DNA of 27,926 nt, from contig CAMLMI010000016.1 of assembly GCA_946480965.1 (NCBI GenBank), positions 1 through 27,926 on the forward strand, in the 5' to 3' direction. Within the stretch, counting starts at the first letter, position 1, and every line of letters begins with the position of its first letter. Position numbers and translations under genes: made by a program. The notes beneath the pieces were generated by a model. The model made no database searches. It had not been told where the DNA came from and worked only from the letters and a program-made list of their open reading frames with translations. Below, piece by piece: positions 11,665-27,926 of this stretch. Origin of the DNA: an uncultured Verrucomicrobiales bacterium. GTDB taxonomy: Bacteria > Verrucomicrobiota > Verrucomicrobiae > Limisphaerales > CANJSG01.

Positions 11665-11695
11665 CGGACGGTCGGGAACGAGGGGAAAAGAAATG

Positions 11696-11784
11696 TCAGG
11701 GAAACCACGACTGCACGGAGCAAACTACCGTTGCTGCCTTCCGGCCCTGGCGGGGTTCGTAAGTCCGAGCCCCATGGCCCCTGA
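11696..11784 (-). ncRNA. ffs: Bacterial small signal recognition particle RNA (4.5S type)
   Basis: On the minus strand the conserved SRP domain IV is clear: CCAGGGCCGGAAGGCAGCAA, with the GGAA tetraloop and the asymmetric bulge that binds Ffh. The ends TCAGGG (5', at 11784) and CCCTGA (3', at 11696) pair to close the rod, giving about 89 nt. There is no Alu domain, as expected for the short Gram-negative-type RNA. It forms the core of the SRP that targets nascent membrane proteins to FtsY and SecYEG. T-rich sequence (CATTTCTTTT) follows the 3' end. The exact ends are inferred from pairing. Confidence 0.95.
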
Positions 11785-11883
11785 CGCGGTCAACGTGGCC
11801 TGTTCCTCCGCACGAAGGCAATCGGGAAATCGCGGCGATCCACGCCCGTTCTGCCGCAGGCGGTTCCGGACGCCGCCGCTGCT

Positions 11884-14522: not shown

Positions 14523-17402
14523 GTGGCCCGCGACCTGCCCATCTGGAAGGTGGCGGACGACATCGTCCGTCATCTCACCGGGAACAATCGCCTCGTCCTC
14601 GTCGCGCCGACCGGCTCCGGCAAGTCCACCCAAGTCCCTCAATTGCTCGCGGACTCGGGCCTGGTCGGTGGTAAACGCATCGTCGTGCTCCAGCCCCGCC
14701 GCGTGGCGGCCCGCACCTTGGCCGGGCGTGTGGCTTGGGAACGCGGCGGCAAGCTGGGTGGCGAAGTGGGCTACCAAGTGCGCTTCGAGGACCGCATCGG
14801 CGACGCCACCCGGATCTGCTTCGTCACCGAAGGCATTCTGCTCCGCTGGATGCAGGACGATCCGCAGCTCGCGGACATCGGCGTGATCGTCTTCGACGAA
14901 TTCCACGAGCGGAACCTGCTGAGCGACGTGGCGCTGGCCTTGGCCAAGCAGCTTCAATCGGGCACGTCCGTTTCCCATCCCTCGCCCCTCGGAGGGGAGA
15001 GGGTCAGGGTGAGGGGTGAAGCCACTCCGTCTAACGAGAGTTCCTCGCTCCTGAGCGGCCAACCCACCCCTGCCCCCTCCCAAGAGGGGAACCTTGAACG
15101 CGCGCCCGGCGGTCAAGAATCGTCCTGTCTTATCCCCTCCTCGGAGGGGTCAGGGGTGGGTTCCGGCAATCGACCGAAGAACCAAGCTCCAAGCCTTCGC
15201 CCCGACCTCAAGCTGATCGTCATGTCCGCCACGCTCGACGCCGAGCCGGTGGCGGACTACCTGACCATCGGCGGCGCGCGCTGCCCCATCGTCGTGTCCG
15301 AAGGGCAGATGTTCCCGGTGCAGATCACGCACTCCTTCGTGCCGGACGAAACGCCGATTCCCCAGCAGGCCGCCCGCGCCGTGGCCGAGCTGATCGATGC
15401 CGGCGAAGCGGGCGACGTGCTGGTCTTTATGCCCGGCATGGGCGAGATCCAGGCCACGATCAACGCGCTCCGTGCCGAACGGCTGGACGAACGCCTCGCG
15501 CTCATCCCGCTGCACGGCGAGCTGTCGCCGCAGGACCAGGACCTCGCCTTCGAGCCCAGTCCGCTCCGCAAGGTCGTTGTCGCCACCAACGTGGCCGAGA
15601 CCTCCGTGACCATCGACGGCGTCCGCCATGTCGTCGATTCCGGCCTGGCCCGCGTGGCGCGCTACGATTCGAACCGGGGATTGCAGACGCTGTTGATCGA
15701 GGAGATCAGCCGCGCTTCGGCCGATCAGCGCAAGGGCCGCGCCGGCCGCACCGGACCCGGCACCTGCCGCCGGCTCTGGACCGAGAGCAACCATCTCAAT
15801 CGTCCCGAGCGCAACACCCCGGAGATCCGCCGCGCCGACCTCGCGGAAACCGTCCTCCTGCTCCACTCGCTGGGCGTGCCGGACGCGACGACCTTCGACT
15901 GGTTGGACAAGCCCGAGACGCAGGCCGTGGCCCGGGCCGAGCGGCTGTTGCGCACGCTCGGAGCCATTGATCCGGTCACGAACCACCTCACGCCGGTCGG
16001 CCGGAAAATGCTGCGGCTGCCGATGCACCCGCGCTTCAGCCGGATGTTGGTCGAGGCCCAGCGCTTCAATTGCGTGGAGCAGGCCGCGCTCTGCGCCGCG
16101 CTCGTCAGCGGACGCGATCTGCTCACGCGCGTCAGCCGCGACGAGAAGCACATCGCCGACGCGCGCGAGACGTTTGAAGGCAGCCCGCTCTCGGACTTCT
16201 TCACCCTGCTGCGCGCCTACCAGCACGCGCGGAATCAGCGCTTCGATTTCGAATCCTGCCGCCGCTACGGCATCAACGCCAAGGTGGCCCGCGAAATGGA
16301 TCTGACCTTCCAGCAGTTGCTGGGTCTGGCGGAACGGGAAGGAATGCTGCGCAGCGAGAGTAGGACAGGCTTCCAGCCTGTCCCGGCCACTCCGTCCGAA
16401 TCAGCCGCCCAGACCCAGAGGGGCGGGCAGGATGCCCACCCTACCTCGTCCGACGAAGGCCTGCTCCGCAGCCTCTTCACCGGCTTCGCCGACCAGCTTT
16501 GCCAGCGCCTCAGCTCCGGCACGCTTGACGTGCAGCTGACCGAAGGCCGCACCGCCGCGCTCGTCCGCGAGAGCGTCGTGCAGAGCCCGCTCTTCGTCGC
16601 CGCGATGCTGAAGGAAGTGCAGAACCGCGGCGGCGGCACCACCACGCTGGTGGGCTTAGCCACGGCGGTGAAACGCGAGTGGATCGAGGAGTCGTTCCCC
16701 GATCAGCTTCAGATCGCCACCCGGCACGAATACGACCGCATCCACCGCCGCATCGCCGCCATCCGGCAAGTGCAGTTCCACGGCCTCACGCTCGCGCGCG
16801 ACCATCAGAAGGAGCTCGATCCCGCCGCCTGCGGCCGCGCTTTGGCCGACGCCTTTGGCCAAGGCGCGTTCGATCTGCCGAACCTCACGCACGAGGTGAA
16901 GCAGCTCATCGCGCGGACGAACTTCGTGGCCGCAGCCGCGCCCGAACTGGAGTTTCCCAAGCTGGCCGATGCCGGGCTCGTGGAGTTCTTCGCGCAGGCC
17001 TTCCACGGCATGTCCCTCGCCAAGGAAGCCCAAACCGCCGACCTCAAGGCCGCGTTCCTCCGGTTCCTCGGCAAGGACCGCCGCGAATGGCTCGACGCGC
17101 TCGCGCCCATCTCCATTCCGTGGCCCAGCGGCAAACCCGTGAAGCTCGCCTACGTTCCGGCCGGCACGGACGAGGACGGCATCCTCCAACCGCCCGAAGC
17201 CCAGGTGAAGCTGCTGGAATGCTTCGATCTGACGGAGCATCCCAAGCTCGTGGAAGGCACCGTGCCGGTCCGCCTCGCGCTGACCACGCCCGACGGCAAG
17301 CGCCTCGACGCGACGACCGATTGGCCGAGCTTCAAGGCGCTGACCTATCCGAAGCTGCGGGCGGGATTGGCCAAGAAGTTTCCCGGCTTCACCTGGCGCT
17401 GA
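14523..17402 (+). CDS. hrpB: ATP-dependent DExH helicase HrpB with two repeat-encoded insertions
   Basis: 959 residues, GTG at 14523. RecA-like helicase core: Walker A APTGSGKST (28-36), motif II DEFH (125-128) with the HrpB-type DEFHER, motif III SATL (235-238), and motif VI QRKGRAGRTG (402-411), then helicase-associated and HrpB C-terminal domains ending PGFTWR. The family is a DEAH/RHA-type putative RNA helicase whose cellular role is poorly defined. Two stretches have no counterpart in the family: about 146-226 (VSHPSPLGGERVRVRG..., between motifs II and III) and about 612-644 (RTGFQPVP ... GGQDAHPTS). Both coincide exactly with hairpin repeats in the DNA and keep the frame. Both lie at points where a surface loop is plausible, so the enzyme may stay active; this is inference. 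It converges with the dehydrogenase gene, with a 63-nt gap. Confidence 0.93.
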   Translation: MARDLPIWKVADDIVRHLTGNNRLVLVAPTGSGKSTQVPQLLADSGLVGGKRIVVLQPRRVAARTLAGRVAWERGGKLGGEVGYQVRFEDRIGDATRICFVTEGILLRWMQDDPQLADIGVIVFDEFHERNLLSDVALALAKQLQSGTSVSHPSPLGGERVRVRGEATPSNESSSLLSGQPTPAPSQEGNLERAPGGQESSCLIPSSEGSGVGSGNRPKNQAPSLRPDLKLIVMSATLDAEPVADYLTIGGARCPIVVSEGQMFPVQITHSFVPDETPIPQQAARAVAELIDAGEAGDVLVFMPGMGEIQATINALRAERLDERLALIPLHGELSPQDQDLAFEPSPLRKVVVATNVAETSVTIDGVRHVVDSGLARVARYDSNRGLQTLLIEEISRASADQRKGRAGRTGPGTCRRLWTESNHLNRPERNTPEIRRADLAETVLLLHSLGVPDATTFDWLDKPETQAVARAERLLRTLGAIDPVTNHLTPVGRKMLRLPMHPRFSRMLVEAQRFNCVEQAALCAALVSGRDLLTRVSRDEKHIADARETFEGSPLSDFFTLLRAYQHARNQRFDFESCRRYGINAKVAREMDLTFQQLLGLAEREGMLRSESRTGFQPVPATPSESAAQTQRGGQDAHPTSSDEGLLRSLFTGFADQLCQRLSSGTLDVQLTEGRTAALVRESVVQSPLFVAAMLKEVQNRGGGTTTLVGLATAVKREWIEESFPDQLQIATRHEYDRIHRRIAAIRQVQFHGLTLARDHQKELDPAACGRALADAFGQGAFDLPNLTHEVKQLIARTNFVAAAAPELEFPKLADAGLVEFFAQAFHGMSLAKEAQTADLKAAFLRFLGKDRREWLDALAPISIPWPSGKPVKLAYVPAGTDEDGILQPPEAQVKLLECFDLTEHPKLVEGTVPVRLALTTPDGKRLDATTDWPSFKALTYPKLRAGLAKKFPGFTWR
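14979..15003. repeat. Hairpin repeat inside hrpB (first insertion, left part)
   Basis: CCCTC (14979-14983) with GAGGG (14999-15003), and inside it CCCCTC-G-GAGGGG (14985-14997), form an almost perfect stem-loop. The following GTCAGGGTGAGGGGTG tail completes a repeat that I associate with dispersed intergenic elements in Verrucomicrobiota. Here it is translated as SPLGGERVRVRG within the helicase. Confidence 0.75.
15061..15162. repeat. Inverted-repeat pair inside hrpB (first insertion, right part)
   Basis: The arms 15061-15080 and 15143-15162 match as inverted repeats at 19 of 20 positions; the outer 12 bp (AACCCACCCCTG / CAGGGGTGGGTT) are perfect. Each arm continues into its own small hairpin (CCCTC/GAGGG on the left; CCCCTCC/GGAGGGG on the right). 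The 62-nt centre is non-repetitive. This is the layout of a two-REP (REPIN-like) element, of a different sequence family from the GTAG type elsewhere in the window. Confidence 0.8.
16360..16444. repeat. GTAG-type REP pair inside hrpB (second insertion)
   Basis: Left unit: GTAG (16360-16363), whose last G opens a 9-bp perfect stem GGACAGGCT/AGCCTGTCC (16363-16371, 16375-16383) with loop TCC. Right unit, inverted: a 9-bp stem with one mismatch (16421-16429 with 16433-16441), loop TCC when read on the minus strand, and CTAC at 16441-16444. Two facing units with the same foot and loop are the layout of a REPIN. It is translated as RTGFQPVP ... GGQDAHPTS. Confidence 0.85.
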
Positions 17403-17465
17403 ACCGCCAAAGCAGCGGGCACCGCGGCACGGCGTTCCGTCAATCGTGGCCTGTCCTGGCGGGCC

Positions 17466-20400
17466 TCATTCTCCCGGGACCTGCGCAGGATGCATCAGGT
17501 AGGCGACCAGGTCGCGGCGTTGCCGGGCGGAGAGGGATTCGAGCAAACCTTCGGGCATCATCGAGGCGGTGGATTCTTCGGCCTCCTCGATGGCGGTTCG
17601 CTCCAGCGTGGCGGTTTCGGTCTGGGTCTGGAGGGTCAGCGTCCGGTCGGTGCGCGCGGTGACGACGCCGTTGAGCACGCGGCCGTCCTTCAAGGTCAGC
17701 ACGGTCATCCGGTAAGTGGCGGCCACGACTGCGCCGGGATCGACGATGTTCTCCAGCAGGTAGTCGAGGTTCGCGCGCCCGGAACCCGTGAGATCGGGAC
17801 CGACCGAACCGCCTTCGCCGTAGAGCCGATGGCACGCAGCACAGGCTTGCTCGTAGAGCCGACGGCCTTGGGCAAGGTCGGCTTGGCGGAGGGTTTCGGG
17901 GAAAAGTTCGGCGCGGAGTTTTTCGATCGAAGCACGCTTGTCGGCGGCGGTGGTGGCGACGGTGCCCCAGACGTCGCCGAGGCGGGCGGTGAGCGCGGCG
18001 TCGTTCAAGCCGGCGATCTGGCGGGCGTGGAAGGGCGTGAGATGCGCCTTGGGCACGCGGCCATCGGCGAGCGCGTCGAGCAACGCGCGGGCGGCGGCGG
18101 AGCGCGTGACCATCGCGCCGAGCACGCGGGCGCGTTCGTCGGCGACAATCCACGGGTATTGCCCGAGGGCGAGCCCGGGAGCCTCGGGTGCTCCGAGCTG
18201 GAGCAGGCCCACCATGATGTCGGCCCGCAGCATGGGATCGCCGACCAGGGGTTTGAGCAGGGGCGCAAGATCCGGAGCGCCGGCGTCGAGCAATGCGCGC
18301 AGGGCGGTGCGGCGGGCATTGGCGTCGGCCTGGCCATCGGCGACGACGGCGCGGAGTTCGTCGAGCGCGCGACCGCTGCCGAAAAGAAGGTCGAGCTCGG
18401 CCAAGGTCTTGTTCAGCGTGGCGTCGGTCGTTGAGGTGAACGTGTCGCGGAAGGCGGCCCAACCCTCGGGCTCGGGCAGTTTGCGCCAGCCGCGCCAGGC
18501 TTCGGCGAAGCCTTGGAGAAGATCGGTTCGTAAGGCGGGATTTTTGGACAGGGAACCTTGCAGCAAGGCCGTCACGGGTTGGGATCGGGACTCGATGGCT
18601 TCGCCCAGACGACGCGCGATCAGCCGGCGCACGGTCGGAATCTCGGCGATGAGCGCGAGACGGACGCCACTGGCCGGATCGGCGGAGACGAGCGGCTCGA
18701 CGCCATACCAGAGCATGAGCGGGAGATTGTGGTCGGAGGCGTCCCCGGCATGGGCCAGGAGCGCCTGGGCAAGATTCACACGAGCCGCTGTCGGCAGCTT
18801 GGGCAGCGCGCTGGCCAGCGCGAGACGGACGGACGGAGCCGGATCGTTCTTGGCCAAATCGAGGAACGCCTTCTCGACCGAAGGCCAAGCGAACGAGTCA
18901 ACCGAGAAGCCGACACGCTCCGCCAGCAAACGCACGGCCCAGAGACGAAGATGCTCATCCCCGTCGCGAGTGGCCCCGGTGATCCGCTGGACCAGCCAAT
19001 CGGTCGATGGTCCGCCCACGGCGTTGAGGGCCCAAAGAACCCGGAGCCGTTCGGCGCGGTTCTGGTAGCTGTGGCGGCCAAACTCCTTGGTCAATTCGGC
19101 GAGAGGAATCGCGGGGTTGGCCTCCCGCGCCGTGCGCGTGGCCAGCACTTGGCGCGCTTGGCGGGCGGTCCATTCGTTGGAGCCGGTGAGCAGCGGCAAC
19201 AGTTCTTGGCCCGAGAGCCGGGTGAGATCACCAAAGACGGGTTTGGCCGGATCGCCGTAGGTGATCTTGTAGATGCGGCCGGAGCTGCGGTGGACACCGT
19301 CGTGTTCGTGGCATTCGCCGGTATCGGACCAGTCGGACAGGAAGACGCCGCCGTCGGGGCCCTGGATCAGATCGAGCCCGCGAAACCACGGGTCGCCGGA
19401 CTGGAAGAGGTCCGGTTCATGCCGCGCCACGTAGCCCGAGCCTCGGCGTTCGATCCGTTCCACGTTCAAACGGCGGCCGTGGAGATTCACGGTGAAAACC
19501 TTGCCGCGAAAGGCCGCGGGCCAGTTGTCGCCCTGATAGATCATCAAGCCGCTGTGGGCGTGGCCGCCGCCGAGGTTGTCGCTCTCGGCGGCGAAGGTTG
19601 TGCCGTCCTGCGAAGCGCGGCTCTTGGTCCAGCTCTGGCCGGTGTCGAAGTGGTAGTGGTCCGCGTGCTGGGGGATCAGCTCGTAGCTGTGCGGGTTCAC
19701 GTCCGCGCCGTGCATCCGCTGGAAATGCGCGCCGGGGATTGCGTGCCAGAAATGGCCGATGACCGTGTTGATGAAGAACGGTTCGCCCTCCGCGTTCCAG
19801 TCGAGGCCCCAGGGGTTCGTCGTGCCGTGGCTGACAGCCTCGATCACGCGGCGCACGGGATGGTAACGCCAGATGCCGCCGTTCATCACGACCCGGTTCG
19901 TCCCGGGCGTGCCGGGGCGGCCGATGTTCGCCTGGCTGGAGATGCCGACGCGACCCCAGAGCCAGCCATCGGGGCCCCACTTCAAACCGTTGGCGAAGGT
20001 GTGGTGGTTGCCGCCGCCGGTATCGAAGCCGTCGAGCAAGACCTCGGGTTCGCCGTCGGGAATGTCGTCGCCGTTCTTGTCCGCGACGAAGAGCAGTTGC
20101 GGCGGGCAAAGCAGGAACGCGCCGCCGTATCCGGTCTCGACGCTGGTGAGGATCTTGGCCCGGTCGAAGAAGACGGTGCGTTTATCGAACCGGCCGTCGT
20201 GGTCCGCGTCCTCGAAGATCAGCACGCGGTCCGAGAGGTTGGTGGCGAACTTCACCGCCGCCTCGGCGTAGGTGTAGTTCTCCGCCACCCAGAGCCGACC
20301 ACGCGGATCGAAGGCCATCGCGATGGGCTGACGCACATCGGGTTCGCTGGCGAAGACGGAGACCTTGAAGCAGGGCGGAAGCCGGAAAGACTTCGCCGCC

Positions 20401-20552
20401 GCTTCGGCCGACATGGGTTCGCGGCCGGGCTTCTCGGTGTTGTAGGCGTCGGGAAAACGGTCGGCGGCGTGCAGCGAATGGCCGGTAGGCAGGAGGCAGA
20501 GCAGCGCCGAGAGCACAGAGACGCTGGGCAGGATCGCTCGGACGGTGGGCAT
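17466..20552 (-). CDS. PVC-type membrane-bound dehydrogenase with HEAT-like repeats and C-terminal haem-c domain
   Basis: 1028 residues from ATG 20552; a TTG three codons upstream (20561) is less likely. The signal peptide (about 1-29, ending SLHAA) exports it to the periplasm. N-terminal beta-propeller-like dehydrogenase domain (about 45-440) with AMAFDPRGRLWVAENYTY, GNHHTFANGLKWGPDGWLWG and a GHAHSG segment; alpha-helical HEAT-like repeats (about 450-880); then a cytochrome c domain with CAACH (Cys904, Cys907, His908) and a GPDLTGSGR segment. This order is typical of the large putative dehydrogenases abundant in Planctomycetota and Verrucomicrobiota, thought to oxidise sugars or polyols; the substrate cannot be told here. 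It lies downstream of the cbb3 cluster on the same strand, 104 nt past the TauE/SafE-like gene, so transcription could continue into it. It ends convergent with hrpB. No intrinsic terminator is visible in the gap. Confidence 0.92.
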   Translation of the reverse strand: MPTVRAILPSVSVLSALLCLLPTGHSLHAADRFPDAYNTEKPGREPMSAEAAAKSFRLPPCFKVSVFASEPDVRQPIAMAFDPRGRLWVAENYTYAEAAVKFATNLSDRVLIFEDADHDGRFDKRTVFFDRAKILTSVETGYGGAFLLCPPQLLFVADKNGDDIPDGEPEVLLDGFDTGGGNHHTFANGLKWGPDGWLWGRVGISSQANIGRPGTPGTNRVVMNGGIWRYHPVRRVIEAVSHGTTNPWGLDWNAEGEPFFINTVIGHFWHAIPGAHFQRMHGADVNPHSYELIPQHADHYHFDTGQSWTKSRASQDGTTFAAESDNLGGGHAHSGLMIYQGDNWPAAFRGKVFTVNLHGRRLNVERIERRGSGYVARHEPDLFQSGDPWFRGLDLIQGPDGGVFLSDWSDTGECHEHDGVHRSSGRIYKITYGDPAKPVFGDLTRLSGQELLPLLTGSNEWTARQARQVLATRTAREANPAIPLAELTKEFGRHSYQNRAERLRVLWALNAVGGPSTDWLVQRITGATRDGDEHLRLWAVRLLAERVGFSVDSFAWPSVEKAFLDLAKNDPAPSVRLALASALPKLPTAARVNLAQALLAHAGDASDHNLPLMLWYGVEPLVSADPASGVRLALIAEIPTVRRLIARRLGEAIESRSQPVTALLQGSLSKNPALRTDLLQGFAEAWRGWRKLPEPEGWAAFRDTFTSTTDATLNKTLAELDLLFGSGRALDELRAVVADGQADANARRTALRALLDAGAPDLAPLLKPLVGDPMLRADIMVGLLQLGAPEAPGLALGQYPWIVADERARVLGAMVTRSAAARALLDALADGRVPKAHLTPFHARQIAGLNDAALTARLGDVWGTVATTAADKRASIEKLRAELFPETLRQADLAQGRRLYEQACAACHRLYGEGGSVGPDLTGSGRANLDYLLENIVDPGAVVAATYRMTVLTLKDGRVLNGVVTARTDRTLTLQTQTETATLERTAIEEAEESTASMMPEGLLESLSARQRRDLVAYLMHPAQVPGE

Positions 20553-20656
20553 GGGAGGCAATGGACGGGTTTGGGTCGAGTCGGCGCAATGGCGAAGTGC
20601 GCGATTCGACGGTGGGCCGTTGCCCCGCCTTCACGTGATCTTGGGGGCGATGGAAT

Positions 20657-21340
20657 TCAATGCGCGGCGCAGCAGGCCGGGGTTCCCGCGGAGAGGTCGG
20701 GGCTCAGGTAGGGGATGCCGAGGGACAGGCCCCGCAGGATGAGGAGCAGGGCCACGACGGCGAGGGAAGCGGGGATGAGCTTCTGCAAATGGAGACGGAA
20801 GGGGGCGAGGAAGGTCTTCCCCGAGAGCGACACGCCGAACATCAGCGGCACGGTGCCAAGGCCGAAGGCGGCCATGTATTCCATGCCGTGGGTCCAGTGG
20901 CCGGTGGCGAGGGACGCGGCGGCGGCGGCATAGACGAGGCCGCAGGGCAACAGGCCGTTGAGCATTCCCAGAAGGAGCAACGAGGACAGGGAGCGTTGTT
21001 GCAGCAGGCGACCGAGCTTGCCCTTCAACCAACCGACGGCGCGCACGACGGGCGGGGTGGTATAGCGGGTGGAGACGATCAGTCCGAGCAGGATGGCCAC
21101 GCCCGCGACGATGGAGAGCCAGCGCTGGACCCCGGCCAAGGCCAGGCTGCGGCCGAGCAGGCCGAAGATCGCACCGATGAGCGTGTAGGTGACGATGCGG
21201 CCGAGGTTGTAGGCGAGCCGACCGGTGATGAAGGAGGTCCACCCGCGTCCGGGATGGGGCAGGGCCAGGGCGATGGCACCGCACATGCCGACGCAGTGCA
21301 GGCTACCGACAAGGCCGAGCATGAACGCGGTCCAGATCAT
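20657..21340 (-). CDS. TauE/SafE-like (DsbD_2-type) membrane protein of the cbb3 cluster
   Basis: 227 residues, ATG 21340, about six TM helices. The paired motifs GLVGSLHCVGMCG (Cys16, Cys20) and GMLNGLLPCGLVYAA are those of the UreH/DsbD_2 domain usually annotated as sulfite exporter TauE/SafE. Members next to cbb3 genes have been proposed to act in copper supply or thiol redox during oxidase assembly; transport of sulfite is not implied. The C-terminus ends in a CysCys pair (TPACCAAH), possible metal ligands. It is separated from fixH by 198 nt containing a large inverted-repeat element, which may lower its expression relative to the upstream operon. Confidence 0.85.
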   Translation of the reverse strand: MIWTAFMLGLVGSLHCVGMCGAIALALPHPGRGWTSFITGRLAYNLGRIVTYTLIGAIFGLLGRSLALAGVQRWLSIVAGVAILLGLIVSTRYTTPPVVRAVGWLKGKLGRLLQQRSLSSLLLLGMLNGLLPCGLVYAAAAASLATGHWTHGMEYMAAFGLGTVPLMFGVSLSGKTFLAPFRLHLQKLIPASLAVVALLLILRGLSLGIPYLSPDLSAGTPACCAAH

Positions 21341-21355
21341 GGGATGGGCTGGACC

Positions 21356-21508
21356 AGGTAAGGCGAAGGCTCCGGCCGAGCCGCCGGAGGATTTCCACCG
21401 TTCAGGAAGGCGTCTTTGGCAACTCCGGAACGTCGGGGAGTTGCCAGTGAAGCTTCGGAAAACTTGAGGAACCGCAACGGCGGCTCGGCGGGAGCCTTCG
21501 CCCTACCT
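21356..21508. repeat. 153-bp MITE/REPIN-like element with 31-bp terminal inverted repeats
   Basis: The arms 21356-21386 and 21478-21508 are inverted repeats matching at 29 of 31 positions. An inner perfect 10-bp stem TGGCAACTCC/GGAGTTGCCA (21417-21426 with 21437-21446) sits near the centre. The right end reads CTAC (21503-21506) as in the GTAG-type REPs; the left has GTAA. It fills most of the gap between tauE/safE-like and fixH. It has no coding capacity that looks real, so it would need an enzyme supplied in trans. Confidence 0.85.
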
Positions 21509-21538
21509 GTGATCGTCCCGGTGATTTGCATCGCGCTC

Positions 21539-22003
21539 TCAGAGAACGACCGACTGGTCGTGGAAGAATTCCTCGTCGCCGACCTTCCAGGTCACGCGGA
21601 CTTTCCAGAGGCCGGACTGGAGCGACCTGGTGTCGATGCTCTGGACGGCTTCGCCTCCGAGCGAGAGCGGGATCTGCTGGTCCAGCTTGGCGTTGGAGGG
21701 GCGGTAGAGGTGGACGGTGCCGGTGGGTTTCTGGCGGGCGTGTTCCGGCGGCAAGACAATGCGGATGGCGCCTTCGGCGCGGGTGATGGCGACTTGGCGT
21801 TCGACGGCTTTGGTGCGGTTCACGCGGTCGATCTGCTGCTGGAACTTGATCTCCTCGTCGTAGTAGTCGGCACGGACGAGGTCCATCTTGTGGCCTTGGG
21901 CGAAGACGATGTAGCTGAAGACGCCGGTGGCGAAAAGAGCCATCCAAGCGATGATCGCGTAGGGCCAGAGGGAGCGCGGGGGCTGGGGGGCTGGGGTGTT
22001 CAT
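21539..22003 (-). CDS. ccoH: FixH/CcoH family cbb3 oxidase assembly protein
   Basis: 154 residues from ATG 22003. The frame is open further upstream, but the extra residues are Arg-rich and come from non-conserved intergenic DNA. One N-terminal TM helix (about 11-32, LWPYAIIAWMALFATGVFSYIVF) is followed by a periplasmic domain; VRADYYDEEIKFQQQIDRVNRT just after the helix is characteristic of FixH, and a beta-sandwich region follows (TGTVHLYRPS, GLWKVRVTW). The family is needed for assembly or stability of the cbb3 oxidase. It lies 109 nt downstream of ccoG, with a hairpin repeat in the gap, and 198 nt upstream of the TauE/SafE-like gene. Confidence 0.9.
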   Translation of the reverse strand: MNTPAPQPPRSLWPYAIIAWMALFATGVFSYIVFAQGHKMDLVRADYYDEEIKFQQQIDRVNRTKAVERQVAITRAEGAIRIVLPPEHARQKPTGTVHLYRPSNAKLDQQIPLSLGGEAVQSIDTRSLQSGLWKVRVTWKVGDEEFFHDQSVVL

Positions 22004-22073
22004 GGGAGCGAAGATGGGTTGGGCGACGGAGCGGCACCGGAAACGACGCTGCGCTGGTTTCCTCCGGATGTTT

Positions 22074-22098
22074 GGGCTGCGCGGCAACGCAGCCCTAC
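22074..22098. repeat. GTAG-type hairpin repeat between ccoG and ccoH
   Basis: A perfect 8-bp stem GGGCTGCG (22074-22081) and CGCAGCCC (22088-22095), 6-nt loop, with CTAC at 22095-22098 (GTAG on the minus strand). It is a single unit, between the stop of ccoG and the start of ccoH in the transcribed strand, where it could shape mRNA processing or decay. There is no T-run, so it is not a standard terminator. Confidence 0.8.
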
Positions 22099-22112
22099 CG
22101 ACTTGGTGAGGT

Positions 22113-23585
22113 TCATGGCACGATCTGGTCGGCGCGGGGGCCGACGAACGAGGTTTTCACGGTTTCCAGGCGGCGACCGTTGGAATAGACGCCGATGACG
22201 AGCGGGGTGGACTGGCCCTGGAGCTTGTCGGGCGCGAGTTCGATGAGGACGGAGGTTTCGGCCAGCTTTTCGGCCGGAGCCACGAGCTGTTGGCCGGTCA
22301 TCACGCGCAGGGAGCCTGCGGTGTTTTCCAGACGGAACTCCACGGGCAGGTCGTGGCCGCGTTTGTTGATGACCTTCACCGTGTAGAGATTGCTGAAGTT
22401 GCCCTCGGCGGTCTTCTGGAACAGTCCGCCCTTGGCGCGGAGGAAAAGGGTTTCCACTTCGGAACGGGTAAAGACGAGGTAGGCCAGCAACGCGACGAGG
22501 CCGGCGATGATCGTCGTGTAGAGCTTCATGCGCGCGGTGTAGCGCAGGGGTTCGCCTTTCTGGATGCCGTTGAGCGAGGCGTAGCGGATCAGGCCCTTGG
22601 GGCGGCCGACCTTGGTCATCACGGTGTCGCAGGCGTCGATGCAGGCGGTGCAGTTCACGCACTCCATCTGGGTGCCGTTGCGGATGTCGATGCCGGTGGG
22701 ACATACGGCGACGCACTGGTGGCAATCGACACAGTCGCCGAGCCCGGCGGCCCGGCGGGCTTCGACGGGCTGCTCGCGTTTCAACGGAGCCCGGCCTTCT
22801 CCGCGCTTGTGGTCATAGGCCACAACCATGGTGTTCTCGTCGATCAGCGCCGACATGAAGCGGCCGTAGGGACAGATGAAGGTGCAGGCCTGTTCCCGGA
22901 ACCGGGCGAAGATGCCGTAGAACAGCAGGCTGAAGGCGATCATGAAGCCGAGCCCGACGAGGTGCTTGCGCGGATCGTCGGTGCTGATGGCGATCATCTG
23001 CTCGCTGCCGATGATGTAGCTGAGGAGCGTGTTCCCAACGACGAACGAGAGGAAGAAATAGATCGCGTGCTTGAGGAGCTTCTTCGCCAGCTTCTTTCCC
23101 TTCCACGGCAGCTTGTCGAGGGCCCGCTGCGCGTGGGCGTCGCCTTCGATGAGGTATTCGATGGGCCGGAAAACCATCTCCATCATCACCGTCTGGGGAC
23201 AGGCCCAGCCACACCAGAGGCGGCCGAATGCCGTCGTGAAGATCATGATGCTGGCGAAGAAGAGCAGCATGGTGACCGCGAAGATGATCGAGTCCTCGGG
23301 CCAGAAGATCTGGCCGAGGATGGAAAACTTGCGCTCCACGATGTTCAGCATCAGGAGCGGGTTGCCGTCGATCCGGATGAAGGGACCGGCGAACATGATG
23401 GCGATGAGGGCCCAGGCGAACCACGTCCGCCGCGTTGTCCAGGTGCCGCAGGGTTTCTTGGCATAGACCCACTTGCGGCTGCCGTCCTGGTGGGCGGTCG
23501 CCAAGTGGTCGCGGTAGTCGCCCCAGTTGATCTCCTGCTCGGCCCCGGTGGACGGCTTGGTGGCGGGATTGGCAGGAGGCTTCAT
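22113..23585 (-). CDS. ccoG: Cytochrome c oxidase accessory protein CcoG (FixG/RdxA)
   Basis: 490 residues, ATG 23585. A polytopic inner-membrane Fe-S protein, known in the family as a cupric reductase that helps supply Cu(I) for the CuB site of cbb3 oxidase. Features: TM helices at about 55-72, 98-118, 172-193 and 209-227; conserved Cys pairs CGWACP (125, 129) and CTFICP (234, 238); two 4Fe-4S clusters with Cys285/288/291/295 (followed by PTGIDIRNG) and Cys309/312/315/319; a fifth TM (about 350-367); then an Ig-like FixG C-terminal domain. Length is normal. It starts 15 nt after ccoP, with no clear Shine-Dalgarno. Confidence 0.96.
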   Translation of the reverse strand: MKPPANPATKPSTGAEQEINWGDYRDHLATAHQDGSRKWVYAKKPCGTWTTRRTWFAWALIAIMFAGPFIRIDGNPLLMLNIVERKFSILGQIFWPEDSIIFAVTMLLFFASIMIFTTAFGRLWCGWACPQTVMMEMVFRPIEYLIEGDAHAQRALDKLPWKGKKLAKKLLKHAIYFFLSFVVGNTLLSYIIGSEQMIAISTDDPRKHLVGLGFMIAFSLLFYGIFARFREQACTFICPYGRFMSALIDENTMVVAYDHKRGEGRAPLKREQPVEARRAAGLGDCVDCHQCVAVCPTGIDIRNGTQMECVNCTACIDACDTVMTKVGRPKGLIRYASLNGIQKGEPLRYTARMKLYTTIIAGLVALLAYLVFTRSEVETLFLRAKGGLFQKTAEGNFSNLYTVKVINKRGHDLPVEFRLENTAGSLRVMTGQQLVAPAEKLAETSVLIELAPDKLQGQSTPLVIGVYSNGRRLETVKTSFVGPRADQIVP

Positions 23586-23600
23586 GGGGAACTGATCGCC

Positions 23601-24212
23601 TTACTCGAAGGCGTTGGGCTGTTCCTGCGCGGGGGCCTGGTCTTCGCGGGGTTTCGGGTTCTCCGGCGTGGTGCCGCGGAACTTCTGGATGTAGCTGGCC
23701 ACGGCGTAGATTTCCTGCGGCTTCAACGTCTCTTTCCAGGCCAACATGCCTTTGTCGGGCACGCCGTTCATGATCACCTTCAGATGGTCGGCGAAGGTCG
23801 CGCCGTGGATCCAGTAGTCGTCGCAGAGGTTGGGGCCGACCAAGCCGCCGCCGTCCTCGCGATGGCAGGGGGCGCAGAGGCTGGTGTAGGTCTGCTTGCC
23901 GGTGGCGAGCACGGCGTCGTCCTTCGACGGCTCCATCGAGCCGAGGTTGGCGACGAACTTCTCCTGCGCAGCCTTCTTGATGGCATCGCCCTTGGCCATC
24001 TCGGCCCGGTATTCGGTGAGCTGGACGCCGCCGTTCTTGTTGAACTCGTCGGCCTTCAGGACGTGGTAGTAGCCCATGTAGGCGATGGAGAACGCGATGG
24101 TGAGGTAGAAGAGCCAGACCCACCAGCGCGGCAGGTTGTTGTCCAGCTCCTTGATGCCGTCGGCCTCGTGGTCGAGCAGCAGCGGGTCCTTGGGTTCGTC
24201 CGGGTTATTCAT
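23601..24212 (-). CDS. ccoP: Short single-haem CcoP subunit of cbb3 oxidase
   Basis: 203 residues, ATG 24212. An N-terminal FixP-type stretch (KELDNNLPRWWVWLFYLTI, with the TM at about 30-48) anchors the subunit. One cytochrome c site is present, CAPCH (Cys113, Cys116, His117), with Met156 (DKGML) as the likely sixth ligand. Classical proteobacterial CcoP carries two CxxCH sites in about 300 residues; only one is present here, and no second site is found on reading the protein. The C-terminal tail is Pro/Glu/Gln-rich. A strong AAAGGAGA lies 8 nt upstream of the ATG, and the start overlaps the end of ccoQ by 8 nt, indicating translational coupling. Confidence 0.94.
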   Translation of the reverse strand: MNNPDEPKDPLLLDHEADGIKELDNNLPRWWVWLFYLTIAFSIAYMGYYHVLKADEFNKNGGVQLTEYRAEMAKGDAIKKAAQEKFVANLGSMEPSKDDAVLATGKQTYTSLCAPCHREDGGGLVGPNLCDDYWIHGATFADHLKVIMNGVPDKGMLAWKETLKPQEIYAVASYIQKFRGTTPENPKPREDQAPAQEQPNAFE

Positions 24213-24396
24213 GGCGGGAATCTCCTTTCGTCACCTCGCCGCCATCGAGCGGGAGGCTTTCCATGCGCTGCACGAGCGCCTTCTTCTGGAACAGGGCCCA
24301 GGCGACGGCGACGAGGAAGGTGGCGAAGAACAGGCAGATCGAGACGATGCCGTAGTTCTCGATGCCTCCGAGGTGGCTGAGGACGTTCTTGATCAT
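24205..24396 (-). CDS. ccoQ: CcoQ/FixQ-like small subunit
   Basis: 63 residues, ATG 24396, 7 nt after the ccoNO stop, with a weak GAGG upstream. A single TM helix (about 16-36, YGIVSICLFFATFLVAVAWAL) is followed by a basic QKKALVQRM segment and a polar tail, the usual CcoQ layout. In other bacteria CcoQ stabilises the interaction of CcoP with the CcoNO core. Its position between ccoNO and ccoP supports the call. The last codons overlap the ccoP start. Confidence 0.9.
   Translation of the reverse strand: MIKNVLSHLGGIENYGIVSICLFFATFLVAVAWALFQKKALVQRMESLPLDGGEVTKGDSRHE
24221..24228 (-). promoter_or_regulatory. Strong ribosome binding site of ccoP
   Basis: AAAGGAGA on the minus strand, 8 nt before the ccoP ATG and inside the ccoQ coding sequence. 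One of the few clear Shine-Dalgarno sites in the window; it fixes the start of ccoP. Confidence 0.85.
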
Positions 24397-24403
24397 GGGA
24401 GCC

Positions 24404-26557
24404 TCAATTCTTGGGAGCGGTGGACGCCTCCGAGCCCTTGATGTCGGTGCCGAGCCGCTGGAGGTAGGCGATCATGGCGATGATTTCCTTGTTGGGCTGG
24501 CCCTGGATGGAACCGGCCTTGAGGTTCTCGACGATCTTCGCCGCCTGCGCGTCGAGATCCTTCTGGGCCTCGCCGTTCTCGTAGCCGGCGGGATACGGGA
24601 CGCCGACCTTGCGGAGGGCCTTGATGCGGGCGGGGAGCGAGTTCGTGTCCATGTTCTGGGTCAAGAGCCACGGGTAGCGCGGCATGATGGAGTTCGGTGA
24701 TGTGATCTCCGGGTTGTCCATGTGGTTGTAGTGCCAGGCGTCGGGATACTTGCCGCCGATGCGGTGCAGGTCCGGGCCGGTGCGTTTGGAGCCCCAGAGG
24801 AACGGGTGGTCATAGACGTATTCGCCCGCCTTGGAGTATTCGCCGTAGCGTTCGGTCTCGCTGCGGAAGGGGCGGATCATCTGCGAATGGCAGCCGACGC
24901 AGCCCTCGCGGATGTAGATGTCGCGGCCGAGGACTTCGAGCGGCGTGTAGGGCTTCACCGAGGAGATGGTCGGGACGTTCTCCTTGATGAGGTAGAGCGG
25001 GACGATCTCGACCAGGCCGCCGATGGCGACGGCCACGAGGGACAGGACCGTGAAGAGGATGGGCTTCGATTCCAGCGCGCGGTGCCAGTAGCTGTGCTTG
25101 GCGTGGGCGGGCGCGGCGTGGGCTTCCTGTGCGGCGAGCGAAGGGGCCTGGGCCTCGACCTCGGCCTCGAAGACGCCGCTCTTGGCCGTCTTCCACAGGT
25201 TGTAGGCCATGATGAAGGCACCGACGATGTAGAGCGTGCCGCCGATGGCGCGCAGCACATACATCGGGATGAGCTGGATGACGGTCTCCAGGAAGTTCGG
25301 GTATTTCATGAACCCGTCCTCGGTGAACTCCTTCCACATGAGGCCCTGGGTGATGCCGCTCCAGTAGATGGGGATGGCGTAGAACATCATGCCCAGCAGC
25401 CCGAGCCAGAAGTGCCAGTTCACCAGCTTCATGGAATACAGCTTCGTGTTCCACATCTTGGGGAAGAGCCAGTAGAGCATGGAAAAGGCGATGAAGCCGT
25501 TCCAACCGAGCGCGCCGGTGTGGACGTGGGCGATGGTCCAGTCGGTGTAATGGGAGAGGGAATTGACGCTCTTGATCGAGAGCATCGGGCCTTCCAGCGT
25601 GGCCATGCCGTAGGCGGTGAGGGCCACGACCATGAACTTCAGCATGGGCTCCTCGCGCAGCTTGTGCCACGCGCCGCGCAGGGTGAGCAGGCCGTTCAAC
25701 ATGCCGCCCCAGCTCGGGGCCACCAGCATCACGGAGAAGACCATGCCCAGCGACTGCGCCCAATCTGGCAGCGCCGTGTAGAGCAGATGGTGCGGCCCGG
25801 CCCAGATGTAGATGAAGATCAGGCCCCAGAAATGGATGATCGAGAGCCGGTAGCTGAACACCGGGCGGTTCGCCGCCTTGGGCAGGAAGTAATACATGAT
25901 GCCGAGGAACGGCGTGGTGAGGAAGAAGGCGACGGCGTTGTGCCCATACCACCACTGCACCATCGCGTCCTGCACGCCGGCGTAGATCGAGTAGCTCTTG
26001 AAGGCCCCGGCCGGAATGACCAGCGAATTGACGATGTGCAGCATCGCGACGGTCAGCGCGGTGGCGATGTAGAACCAGATGGCGACGTAGAGGTGCTTCT
26101 CGCGGCGCTTCAGGATGGTGCCGATCAGGTTGACGGTGAAGGCCACCCAGACGAGGGCGATGGCGATGTCGATGGGCCATTCCAGCTCGGCGTATTCCTT
26201 CGAGGAGGTGAGGCCGAGCGGCAGGGTGATCGCCGCGGAGACGATGATGAGCTGCCAGCCCCAAAAGTTCAGCCAGCTGAGCGTGTCGTTGAACATCCGC
26301 GCCTTGCAGAGCCGCTGGAGCGAATAGTAGATGCCCATGAACATGGCGTTGCCCACGAAGGCGAAGATCACCGCGTTCGTGTGCAGCGGGCGCAGGCGGC
26401 CGAAGGTGGTGTATTGCAGGTTCAGGTTCGCCGCCGGCCAGAAGAGCTGGACCGCGATCAGCAGGCCCGCGCAGAAGCCCACGATGCCCCAGACGATGGT
26501 GGCGATGGCGAAGGCGCGGACGATCCGGTTGTCGTATTTGAAGGTTTCCACGTTCAT
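24404..26557 (-). CDS. ccoNO: Fused CcoN-CcoO: catalytic and monohaem subunits of cbb3 oxidase
   Basis: 717 residues, ATG 26557, preceded by AAGGAG at 7 nt. Residues 1 to about 455 are CcoN, the haem-copper catalytic subunit: low-spin haem ligand His59 (RLRPLHTN), the [15 protein letters not shown] helix with a CuB His, GPHHLLY with the CuB His pair, and [12 protein letters not shown] with the other haem ligands. A Glu/Ala-rich linker (about 455-490) leads to CcoO: TM at about 499-523, cytochrome c site CVGCH (Cys553, Cys556, His557), then [17 protein letters not shown] and MPRYPW typical of CcoO. The complex reduces O2 with high affinity and pumps protons. The fusion is in one unbroken frame, not a sequencing artefact by any visible sign. 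Confidence 0.97.
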
Positions 26558-26564
26558 GCGGAGG

Positions 26565-26570
26565 CTCCTT
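26565..26570 (-). promoter_or_regulatory. Ribosome binding site of ccoNO
   Basis: AAGGAG, 7 nt upstream of the ccoNO ATG on the minus strand, in the 25-nt gap after ccoS. It supports the chosen start. Confidence 0.85.
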
Positions 26571-26582
26571 GGGTCATGGGGA

Positions 26583-26765
26583 TCATTCTGGTTTGGTGAA
26601 ATGGTCTTCGGCCGTCTTCTTCGTCGGCGCGTCGTCGGTCAGCATCCGCATCGAGGGCGTGGTGGTGTCGTCGTATTGGCCCGAGCTGACGGCCCAGATG
26701 AAGCCGACCAGGAACGCGGCGGCGACCAGCACGCTCACGGGAATGAGGATAAGGATGACGCTCAT
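26583..26765 (-). CDS. ccoS: CcoS, cbb3 oxidase maturation protein
   Basis: 60 residues, ATG 26765. An N-terminal TM (about 3-26, [24 protein letters not shown]) followed by SGQYDD and a short polar tail is the CcoS signature. In the family it is required for insertion of redox cofactors into the cbb3 oxidase. The ATG overlaps the ccoI stop as ATGA, and a strong GGGAGGT lies 9 nt upstream within the ccoI 3' end, so translation of the two is coupled. Confidence 0.93.
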
Positions 26766-27926
26766 GGGGACTGCACCTCCCTTGCCCGACCCTGAACGGC
26801 TTTTGTGGATGAGGCGGGCTCATGGGGCGATTTTGTTTCCTCGTCTTCGTCTTCCTCCTCGTCCTCCTCAAAGGCTGAGTTGCTTCCAGAAGACGAAGAG
26901 GAAGAGGGGGACGAAGAGGAGGATGCCTGAAGGCCGCTCCTCCGCCCCAACCACCCCGTCAGCCCCACCGCGACCAGCACCACGCTGATCGAACTCAGCG
27001 GCATCAACACCGCGCAGACCACGGGCGAGAGCTTTCCCGCGGCGGCGATGGCGATGCCGACGATGTTGTAGAGGGTGGAGACCAGGAAGCTGACGCGCAC
27101 GACGGTGGTCGTGGACTTGGCGTAGCGCAGCAGCGCGTGGATCTGCGGCACCTGCCCCGCTTGGAGGATCACGTCGCTGGCGGGGGAAAAGGCTCCGACG
27201 TTCTCGACGACGGCCACGCCCACGTCGCTCTGCTGGAGCGCGCCGGCGTCGTTCAAACCGTCGCCGACCATCATCACGGTGCGGCCGGCTTGCTGGCGTT
27301 GCCGGATGAAGCCGAGCTTGTTCAACGGGCTTTGGTTGAAATGGAGCGTGGCGCGTTCGCCGAAGAGCTGCCGGAAGGTTTCGCGCTCGCGTTCGTTGTC
27401 GCCGCTGAGCAGGGAAAGTTCGCCCTGCTGGGCCAAAGCGTGGAGCAGGCGGTCCGTCTCGGGACGCACGCGGTTGCCGAGGACGAAGTGGCCGCGATAA
27501 GTGCCAGCGACCAGGACGTGGACGGTGCTGCCGTTGGTAGGACGGGCCGCTGGCCCGTCAGGTAGTTCAGGCTGCCAGCCTGAACGGTCGGCGGGTCCAA
27601 ACTGGCAGCTTGGACTACGTGCCGAGCTGGCAGCCCGGCCTACTAACCAATCCTTCGCTCCCAACAACACTTCGCGGCCATCGACCACGCCTTCGATCCC
27701 GCAGCCGGGAGTCTCGCGGAACGACGAGATGGACGGCTTGGCACGGGCTTCGCGCGAGCGCAGCGCTTCGGTCAGTTGGACCGACAAGGGATGCGTGGAA
27801 TGCGAGGCAAGTTCGGCGATCCAGGATGTTTCTTCGGCGGTCAGGCTCCCCGGTTCAGCAGGCTGCAAGCCTGCCCCACTGGCTGGAACAAACCGCACAT
27901 CGCCGCCTTCCGCCGAAGTCAGCGTG
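26762..27926 (-). CDS. ccoI: CcoI copper-transporting P-type ATPase, C-terminal part, with repeat-encoded insertions
   Basis: The frame runs off the right edge; the first codons read TLTSAEGG, the end of the DKTGTLT phosphorylation motif, so the metal-binding domain and first TM helices lie outside. Visible: the nucleotide-binding HPLS motif, GDNERE (DxxR-type), the hinge GDGLNDAGAL, and the last TM pair with VLMPLSSISVVLVA. CcoI supplies copper for cbb3 oxidase. Three stretches are not typical of the family: QPAEPG near the start, about 38 residues (AASSARSPSCQFGP ...) after KDWLVG, and a 55-60 residue tail of Ser runs then EEDEEEDEDEE after GRRSGLQ. Each coincides with a hairpin repeat in the DNA and keeps the frame. 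A GTG at 27898 is internal, not the start. The stop overlaps the ccoS start. Confidence 0.94.
   Translation of the reverse strand, partial: TLTSAEGGDVRFVPASGAGLQPAEPGSLTAEETSWIAELASHSTHPLSVQLTEALRSREARAKPSISSFRETPGCGIEGVVDGREVLLGAKDWLVGRAASSARSPSCQFGPADRSGWQPELPDGPAARPTNGSTVHVLVAGTYRGHFVLGNRVRPETDRLLHALAQQGELSLLSGDNERERETFRQLFGERATLHFNQSPLNKLGFIRQRQQAGRTVMMVGDGLNDAGALQQSDVGVAVVENVGAFSPASDVILQAGQVPQIHALLRYAKSTTTVVRVSFLVSTLYNIVGIAIAAAGKLSPVVCAVLMPLSSISVVLVAVGLTGWLGRRSGLQASSSSSPSSSSSSGSNSAFEEDEEEDEDEETKSPHEPASSTKAVQGRAREVQSP
26775..26781 (-). promoter_or_regulatory. Ribosome binding site of ccoS
   Basis: GGGAGGT on the minus strand, 9 nt upstream of the ccoS ATG and inside the last codons of ccoI. 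It is preserved just beyond the repeat-derived tail of ccoI. Confidence 0.85.
26838..26923. repeat. Purine/pyrimidine-rich inverted repeat in the ccoI tail
   Basis: The left arm (26838-26869) is made of CTCGTC/TTCCTC units, the right arm (26889-26923) of GAAGACGAAGAG units; they are imperfectly complementary around a 19-nt centre. It is the same design as 14061-14144. Translated on the minus strand it gives poly-Ser followed by a Glu/Asp run at the end of CcoI. Confidence 0.75.
27538..27643. repeat. Quartet of GTAG-type REP hairpins inside ccoI
   Basis: Four hairpins in 106 bp. Two point right: GTAG 27538-27541 with GACGGGCC/GGCCCGTC and loop GCT; GTAG 27562-27565 with GTTCAGGCT/AGCCTGAAC and loop GCC. 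Two point left: stem 27595-27603 with 27607-27615 and CTAC 27615-27618; stem 27621-27628 with 27632-27639 and CTAC 27640-27643; both have loop GCC on the minus strand and one mismatch. The whole is an inverted arrangement, flanked by TTGG and CCAA, like a BIME. It is translated in frame within the ATPase. Confidence 0.88.
27857..27879. repeat. Degenerate REP hairpin inside ccoI
   Basis: AGCAGGCT (27857-27864), loop GCA, AGCCTGCC (27868-27875), pairing at 7 of 8 positions, with CCAC at 27876-27879 where the other units have CTAC. The shared CAGGCT/AGCCTG core marks it as an older member of the same family. It encodes LQPAEPG shortly after the phosphorylation motif. Confidence 0.65.

Follow-up and report, generated by a model that had tools for sequence, protein, structure and literature searches.

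GTAG REP hairpins read in frame within two verrucomicrobial genes, and evidence from related genomes for a clade of host-embedded RAYTs

Examination of a stretch of 27,926 nucleotides (hereafter the window) from an uncultured Verrucomicrobiales bacterium (GenBank assembly GCA_946480965.1, contig CAMLMI010000016.1, positions 1 to 27,926) revealed seven short hairpins that are repetitive extragenic palindromic (REP) sequences of a known kind, all of them in frame within two genes, one coding for an HrpB ATP-dependent helicase and the other for a copper-type P-ATPase. Their stems pair and covary within these open frames, and in related genomes hairpins of the same family lie beside genes for REP-associated tyrosine transposases (RAYTs) which are themselves in frame within host genes. 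The window hairpins are quite probably GTAG REPs, partly arranged as inverted pairs (REPINs), located in variable loops of the helicase and of the ATPase, for which we propose a mobility derived from a RAYT. With the relatives included, the sequences speak for a clade of RAYTs carried within host genes, and in the best reading the window REPs would be small forms derived from a RAYT element that lies in frame like an intein but is not spliced.

The helicase gene (14523..17402, + strand; Pfam domains HrpB_C, DEAD, Helicase_C and HA2) is the host of units 1 and 2. Unit 1 (16360..16382, +) has a GTAG foot, an 8-bp stem and the loop TCC and is read as SRTGFQPV; unit 2 (16422..16444, -) has the same foot and loop, an 8-bp stem with one G-U pair, and is read as GGQDAHPT. 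Together they form an 85-bp REPIN with its feet pointing outward. The ATPase gene (26762..27926, -), truncated by the end of the window with its frame open to that end, is the host of units 3 to 7. Units 3 (27537..27559, +; loop GCT) and 4 (27562..27584, +; loop GCC) are antisense to the gene and read as DGPAARPT and RSGWQPELP, respectively, while units 5 (27596..27618, -) and 6 (27621..27643, -), both with the loop GCC, are read as RSPSCQFG and VGRAASSA. These four have GTAG feet. Unit 7 (27857..27879, -) has a GTGG foot, an 8-bp stem with one G-U pair and the loop TGC, and is read as SGAGLQPA. GTAG REPs are marked by a short hairpin with GTAG or GTGG at its foot, and the seven units comprise six with GTAG and one with GTGG. 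The initial annotation had listed the six GTAG units and all of them are present, the third beginning at 27537 and not at 27538. Its description of a family spread through the window was too strong, the family being confined to two genes, and it missed the in-frame location.

The number of hairpins clearly exceeds that of shuffled sequence. With G-U pairs allowed, the stem fixed at 8 bp and the loop at 3 nt, the window holds seven GTAG hairpins, against a mean of 0.02 and a maximum of 1 in 200 dinucleotide shuffles; these are the six GTAG units and one hairpin at 17153 with an unrelated stem and loop. Under the same criteria two hairpins have a GTGG foot (mean 0.12, maximum 2), one of which is the family unit at 27879, and none in the window has any of the control feet CTAC, GATG and GTCG. 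When G-U pairs were excluded, three mismatch-free stems of at least 7 bp were counted against a mean of 0.04, and six when one mismatch was tolerated, against a mean of 0.62 and a maximum of 4 (100 dinucleotide shuffles in each case). In an alignment of the seven units, all 56 of 56 cells are paired and changes on both sides of the stem occur in 13 cells, against 3.8 in shuffled alignments, and sliding the pairing partners lowers the pairing to 20-51%. This test covers seven rows only, which are not independent of each other. The compensatory stem changes, already noted in the initial annotation, are real, though the rows are few.

Relatives were taken as 320 genomes from the order of genome G001, which was itself reached through a Verrucomicrobia locus. 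A search with the pattern GTAGNNNRGGCTNCCAGCCY, which covers one stem type, gave 582 matches in 61 of the 320 genomes, whereas the reversed control gave three matches in three genomes. The highest numbers of copies were found in G136 (94), G135 (79), G103 (60), G282 (56), G134 (31) and G008 (25), and some genomes hold tens of near-identical hairpins.

The presence of a Y1_Tnp domain was rejected as a discriminating test, since 258 of the 320 genomes are positive. Many of the Y1 hits from 14 genomes rich in REPs sit in long open frames. Among 20 regions fetched, chosen partly for their long frames, the Y1 domain lies inside a frame of 960-1505 amino acids in 14, inside a frame of 216-274 amino acids in five and in no frame in one. 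The 14 hosts are DinG (five), PriA (two), AlaRS (two), with ClpB, SNF2, HsdR, an N6-methylase and a UDPGP-type protein represented once each; they are named by Pfam where scanned and otherwise by reading the sequence (UDPGP-type L169, PriA L176, AlaRS L179 and L180). PF00176 flanks the insert in L228, spanning residues 407-968 around the RAYT, PriA domains are found on both sides of it in L172, L229 and L234, and domains of ClpB (L227) and of the DNA polymerase III alpha subunit (L237, L243) stand beside or around it. At least 13 unrelated host families carry such genes. The host frame is free of stops in the seven embedded intervals tested (of 14), while each other frame contains 1-14 stops, so that its openness is no effect of high GC content.

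The embedded genes have the HUH motif, the catalytic tyrosine and the TnpA-REP homology of RAYTs. In alignments of 10 and of 40 copies, every copy keeps the HUH histidines and the tyrosine, and the core is 208 amino acids long in nine of the ten aligned copies, a length that depends on motif-anchored cutting. A profile search in PDB returned the E. coli RAYT 4er8 as best match (E 2.2e-5). A predicted model of a DinG fusion (mean predicted local distance difference test score, pLDDT, of 60) matches both DinG 6fwr (E 9e-20) and 4er8 (E 8.8e-4), with RAYT residues 541-720 at pLDDT 55-86 by blocks and linkers mostly below 50. Several RAYTs are bracketed by REP pairs that are read through as linkers, for example VGQASSL...GKMPVLP. 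Among the 24 of 30 loci that could be parsed by motif, a hairpin is detectable within 300 bp of 11 RAYT copies, two of which have another stem type. The RAYTs borne by ClpB (L227 and L233, in genomes G201 and G241) have hairpins with a GTAG foot and a different stem, of GCGACG or GCAACG type, which suggests that enzyme and stem may change together.

A profile built from ten embedded copies gave hits in at least 144 of the 320 genomes at E 1e-15, a lower bound given that at most nine candidates were scored per genome. The following figures use the best 114 rows. Frames of 500 amino acids or more hold 39 of the 50 matches that start at model position 6 or before, against 4 of 61 for those starting at positions 12-16 (Fisher p 1.8e-15). 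All 17 rows of at least 300 bits are in frames of at least 960 amino acids, and 44 rows reach 255 bits or more; of these, 36 have frames no shorter than 500 amino acids and three have an internal stop. As the profile was built from embedded copies its scores favour such copies; frame length is a separate measure. Genomes with an embedded-clade match of at least 255 bits carry the REP pattern in 16 of 37 cases and the others in 45 of 283 (p 2.6e-4), an association which is positive but incomplete.

Searching the RAYT part of a DinG fusion against 5.8 billion proteins yielded 932 long proteins. Among the 120 matches listed, 104 are of DinG type, a label that rests on Pfam strings (P0136 and P0150 are without PF13307), and the 16 others include SNF2, MetH, AlaRS, IspG, UDPGP, DNA methylases and a glycosyltransferase. 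Two RAYT domains each are present in P0126 (AlaRS), P0129 (MetH) and P0204 (IspG). Names given by the Joint Genome Institute (JGI) include 'Rad3-related DNA helicase/REP element-mobilizing transposase RayT', which indicates that annotation pipelines see both the host and the RAYT parts. One entry, P0196 ('transposase, partial') from the cyanobacterium Microcoleus anatoxicus, has a methylase-like part followed by a RAYT with REP-like linkers, so the embedded form is not confined to verrucomicrobia.

From these comparisons we lean towards a RAYT clade that would usually be translated within another protein, with no start or stop of its own closing its frame, bracketed by REPs that are open in the host frame, and passed down for the most part within each host gene (DinG, PriA, ClpB, DnaE, SNF2, AlaRS, MetH and others); the REP pairs of the window would be its small in-frame offspring.

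DinG was found in 292 of the 320 genomes. Among the rows listed, most frames have about 700-800 amino acids and eight RAYT-bearing frames have 960-1040. Three further frames exceed 900 amino acids without a RAYT hit; no HUH motif is present in those of G028 and G032, whose leaders are long and open, and the third is that of G034. The scan of 30 DinG loci found a RAYT in six, five of them with detectable in-frame hairpins, a REP pair only in two (G024 and G201), and neither in 22, at least two of which keep REP-like peptides. The peptide of the G024 pair is nearly identical to that of the downstream pair in G023 and G025, whose DinG alleles carry a RAYT. Such a likeness would be expected if a RAYT had been lost between two pairs or had not yet arrived.

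These DinG alleles bear directly on the strongest alternative, namely that the embedded RAYT is now a working part of its host protein, such as an HUH nuclease-helicase fusion, and that the REPs are its old, immobile products. We regard this as possible, though the less probable explanation. When 14 host labels were placed on a tree of 135 non-redundant RAYT domains, 15 changes of host were counted, whereas 500 shuffles gave 36.7 (minimum 35), so that RAYTs do cluster by host gene; the redundant set, in which some labels lack a host, requires 20 against 47.6. Purifying selection is also visible in one close pair, G023/G025, where the ratio of non-synonymous to synonymous substitution rates (dN/dS) is 0.18 for the RAYT, 0.19 for the N-terminal part of DinG and 0.11 for its C-terminal part; many other RAYT comparisons are saturated. 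A fixed role in the host protein fits less well with closely similar DinG sites both with and without a RAYT, with the diversity of unrelated host families, and with the tens of near-identical hairpins in some genomes. The RAYTs mostly descend with their host gene or move among its copies. Contrary to pure descent, the RAYT of G083 has a non-synonymous difference (pN) of 0.15 to those of G023/G025, against 0.19-0.21 for its DinG N-terminal part.

The two sites in the window were compared with their homologues. In 14 aligned HrpB rows, P0002, P0003 and P0004 have a different REP-like segment at the same site, RRPGFQP...GQD(A/G)RPT, P0005 has a short linker and the remaining homologues have linkers of varied length. 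At the ATPase site (14 homologues aligned, from 120 listed), REPIN-like peptides occur in P0242 and P0243, the insert is absent in four (P0246, P0247, P0319 and P0329), and eight have other inserts, from which we conclude that this loop is generally variable. A PDB alignment was uninformative on the ATPase insert because the loop of the human enzyme is longer there.

Two observations would be in keeping with repeats kept for the peptide that they encode, as proposed for the palindromic elements of Rickettsia: homologues have REP-like segments at the HrpB and ATPase sites too, and seven of seven units are in frame. This explanation is nevertheless quite improbable, given that reading frame and orientation differ among the units, which yield differing peptides, and that their stems covary as DNA. 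In an AlphaFold model of HrpB (mean pLDDT 69.8), the REP-coded residues 615-641 also fall below 50, as do several other stretches.

Removal of the insert by splicing, as an intein or an intron, would agree with its in-frame presence in conserved enzymes in the fashion of inteins; it is still more improbable, for no intein splicing domain is among the Pfam hits of 19 scanned proteins and no self-splicing intron RNA family reached the gathering threshold in five embedded loci. Least probable are ordinary intergenic REPs or terminators that seem to be coding through high GC content or wrong gene calls: 28 of 59 sampled copies in relatives are indeed intergenic, but HrpB and the ATPase both align with homologues on either side of the units.

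Two further repeat-like features were observed in these proteins. A second in-frame HrpB insert, at about 14961-15200 of the window (residues about 147-226), encodes SHPSPLGGERVRVRGE and similar repeat-like peptides; it is missing from P0002, shorter in P0003 and predicted to be disordered. In the ATPase homologues P0243 and P0248, the loop that follows DKTGTLT, close to the place of unit 7, has further peptides of repeat-like character.

Several observations weigh against a derivation of the window REPs from embedded RAYTs. No RAYT is present within the window, and 13 of the 24 parsed RAYT copies have no hairpin detected within 300 bp, presumably because it has diverged. The partial co-occurrence of REPs and embedded RAYTs bears on the claim of the initial annotation that these are REPs mobilized by a RAYT: the relatives support both the identity and the link, with up to 94 copies per genome and RAYTs bracketed by hairpins of the same family, but the link is incomplete, as 45 of the 61 REP-positive genomes are without an embedded-RAYT profile match of at least 255 bits. 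A Y1_Tnp hit is altogether absent in at least five REP-positive genomes (G099, G107, G121, G146 and G153). The nearest HrpB loci in relatives, 80 kept of 92 found and covering 1.23 Mb, show no GTAG excess, with one exact GTAG hairpin against four with GCAG and three with GGAG. Finally, the 59 REPs sampled from 58 loci, the first listed hits of each genome, comprise 24 that lie within called genes by 30 codons or more, 28 intergenic and seven at gene ends, after four hits near locus ends were dropped and with a gene caller trained on the same loci; random positions fall inside genes in 2217 of 2900 cases, and REPs are thus not enriched in genes. They show no preference for genes, yet many reside there.

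Under the embedded-RAYT reading, a RAYT of the embedded clade in the same organism would cut single-stranded REP DNA and spread the pairs, and within genes only readable copies would survive. The pairs of the window may then be a small non-autonomous form, or a remnant after loss of the RAYT between two pairs. By its in-frame position a RAYT would profit from the expression of a housekeeping gene, and could not be degraded by a frameshift or a stop since that host gene would be harmed. The persistence of RAYT genes is an open question in the field, and an in-frame clade suggests an answer in which decay is impossible without damage to the host gene; if true, locking into a housekeeping gene would explain how the transposase persists. 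No account of RAYT genes lying in frame within other genes was apparent in the literature searched, which was judged mostly by titles and the beginnings of abstracts and left most subscription journals outside. In a survey of Y1 proteins, unexpectedly long ones were set aside as gene fusions or annotation errors (PMC6006769), an exclusion which may have hidden embedded RAYTs.

Other features of the window are distinct from the REP family. Among three looser units of the initial annotation, the one at 27857-27879 belongs to the family as its GTGG-foot member and the two others are different things. The first of these, at 21356-21508, lies near a gene boundary and measures roughly 150 bp; its inverted ends are long and imperfect, with CTACCT at one of them. 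The second, at 22074-22098 and also near a gene boundary, is an isolated hairpin with an 8-bp stem and a 6-nt loop overlapping GTA. A bacterial small signal recognition particle RNA (65.9 bits) is located at 11691-11786 on the - strand.

Inteins are selfish enzymes that occur in frame, by host gene and site, with a patchy distribution among orthologues. The embedded RAYT resembles them as an in-frame enzyme tied to host gene and site and patchy in orthologues, and differs from them in that it has no detected splicing domain, is an HUH transposase and has REP hairpins at its ends. The palindromic elements of Rickettsia are likewise repeats in frame in many genes (PMC10969869; PMC3733652). The window hairpins cannot be assigned to these or to CGTC repeats, their feet being GTAG or GTGG; the R. 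conorii repeats have a CGTC foot, and the passages of PMC3733652 report no transposase association for CGTC repeats. A likeness is also found with the group 3 REPs and TnpA-REP of Stenotrophomonas, which share the 23-nt REP, the 8-bp stem, the 3-nt loop and an enzyme with HUH and tyrosine. The initial annotation proposed recognition of structure plus foot; in published work on these REPs, binding by the S. maltophilia enzyme largely tolerated changes in GTAG, and one loop base was crucial. Loop and stem sequences differ from those seen here, and in-frame embedding is undescribed in the passages of that paper (PMC8266576). Close to them as well are the GTAG REPs of the Planctomycetes-Verrucomicrobia-Chlamydiae (PVC) group, in which Opitutus terrae holds the most intragenic GTAG repeats (Di Nocera et al. 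2013, PMC3733652). The passages of that study already place GTAG REPs within genes of verrucomicrobia and describe RAYT genes flanked by REPs, and the O. terrae repeats share with the window hairpins the GTAG foot (mostly GTGG in the GTAG-20 family of O. terrae), the short stem and the occurrence in pairs. The RAYT gene itself in frame within its hosts, a feature undescribed in those passages, sets the present case apart. Such an element would suit host translation with its coding region as well as with its ends.

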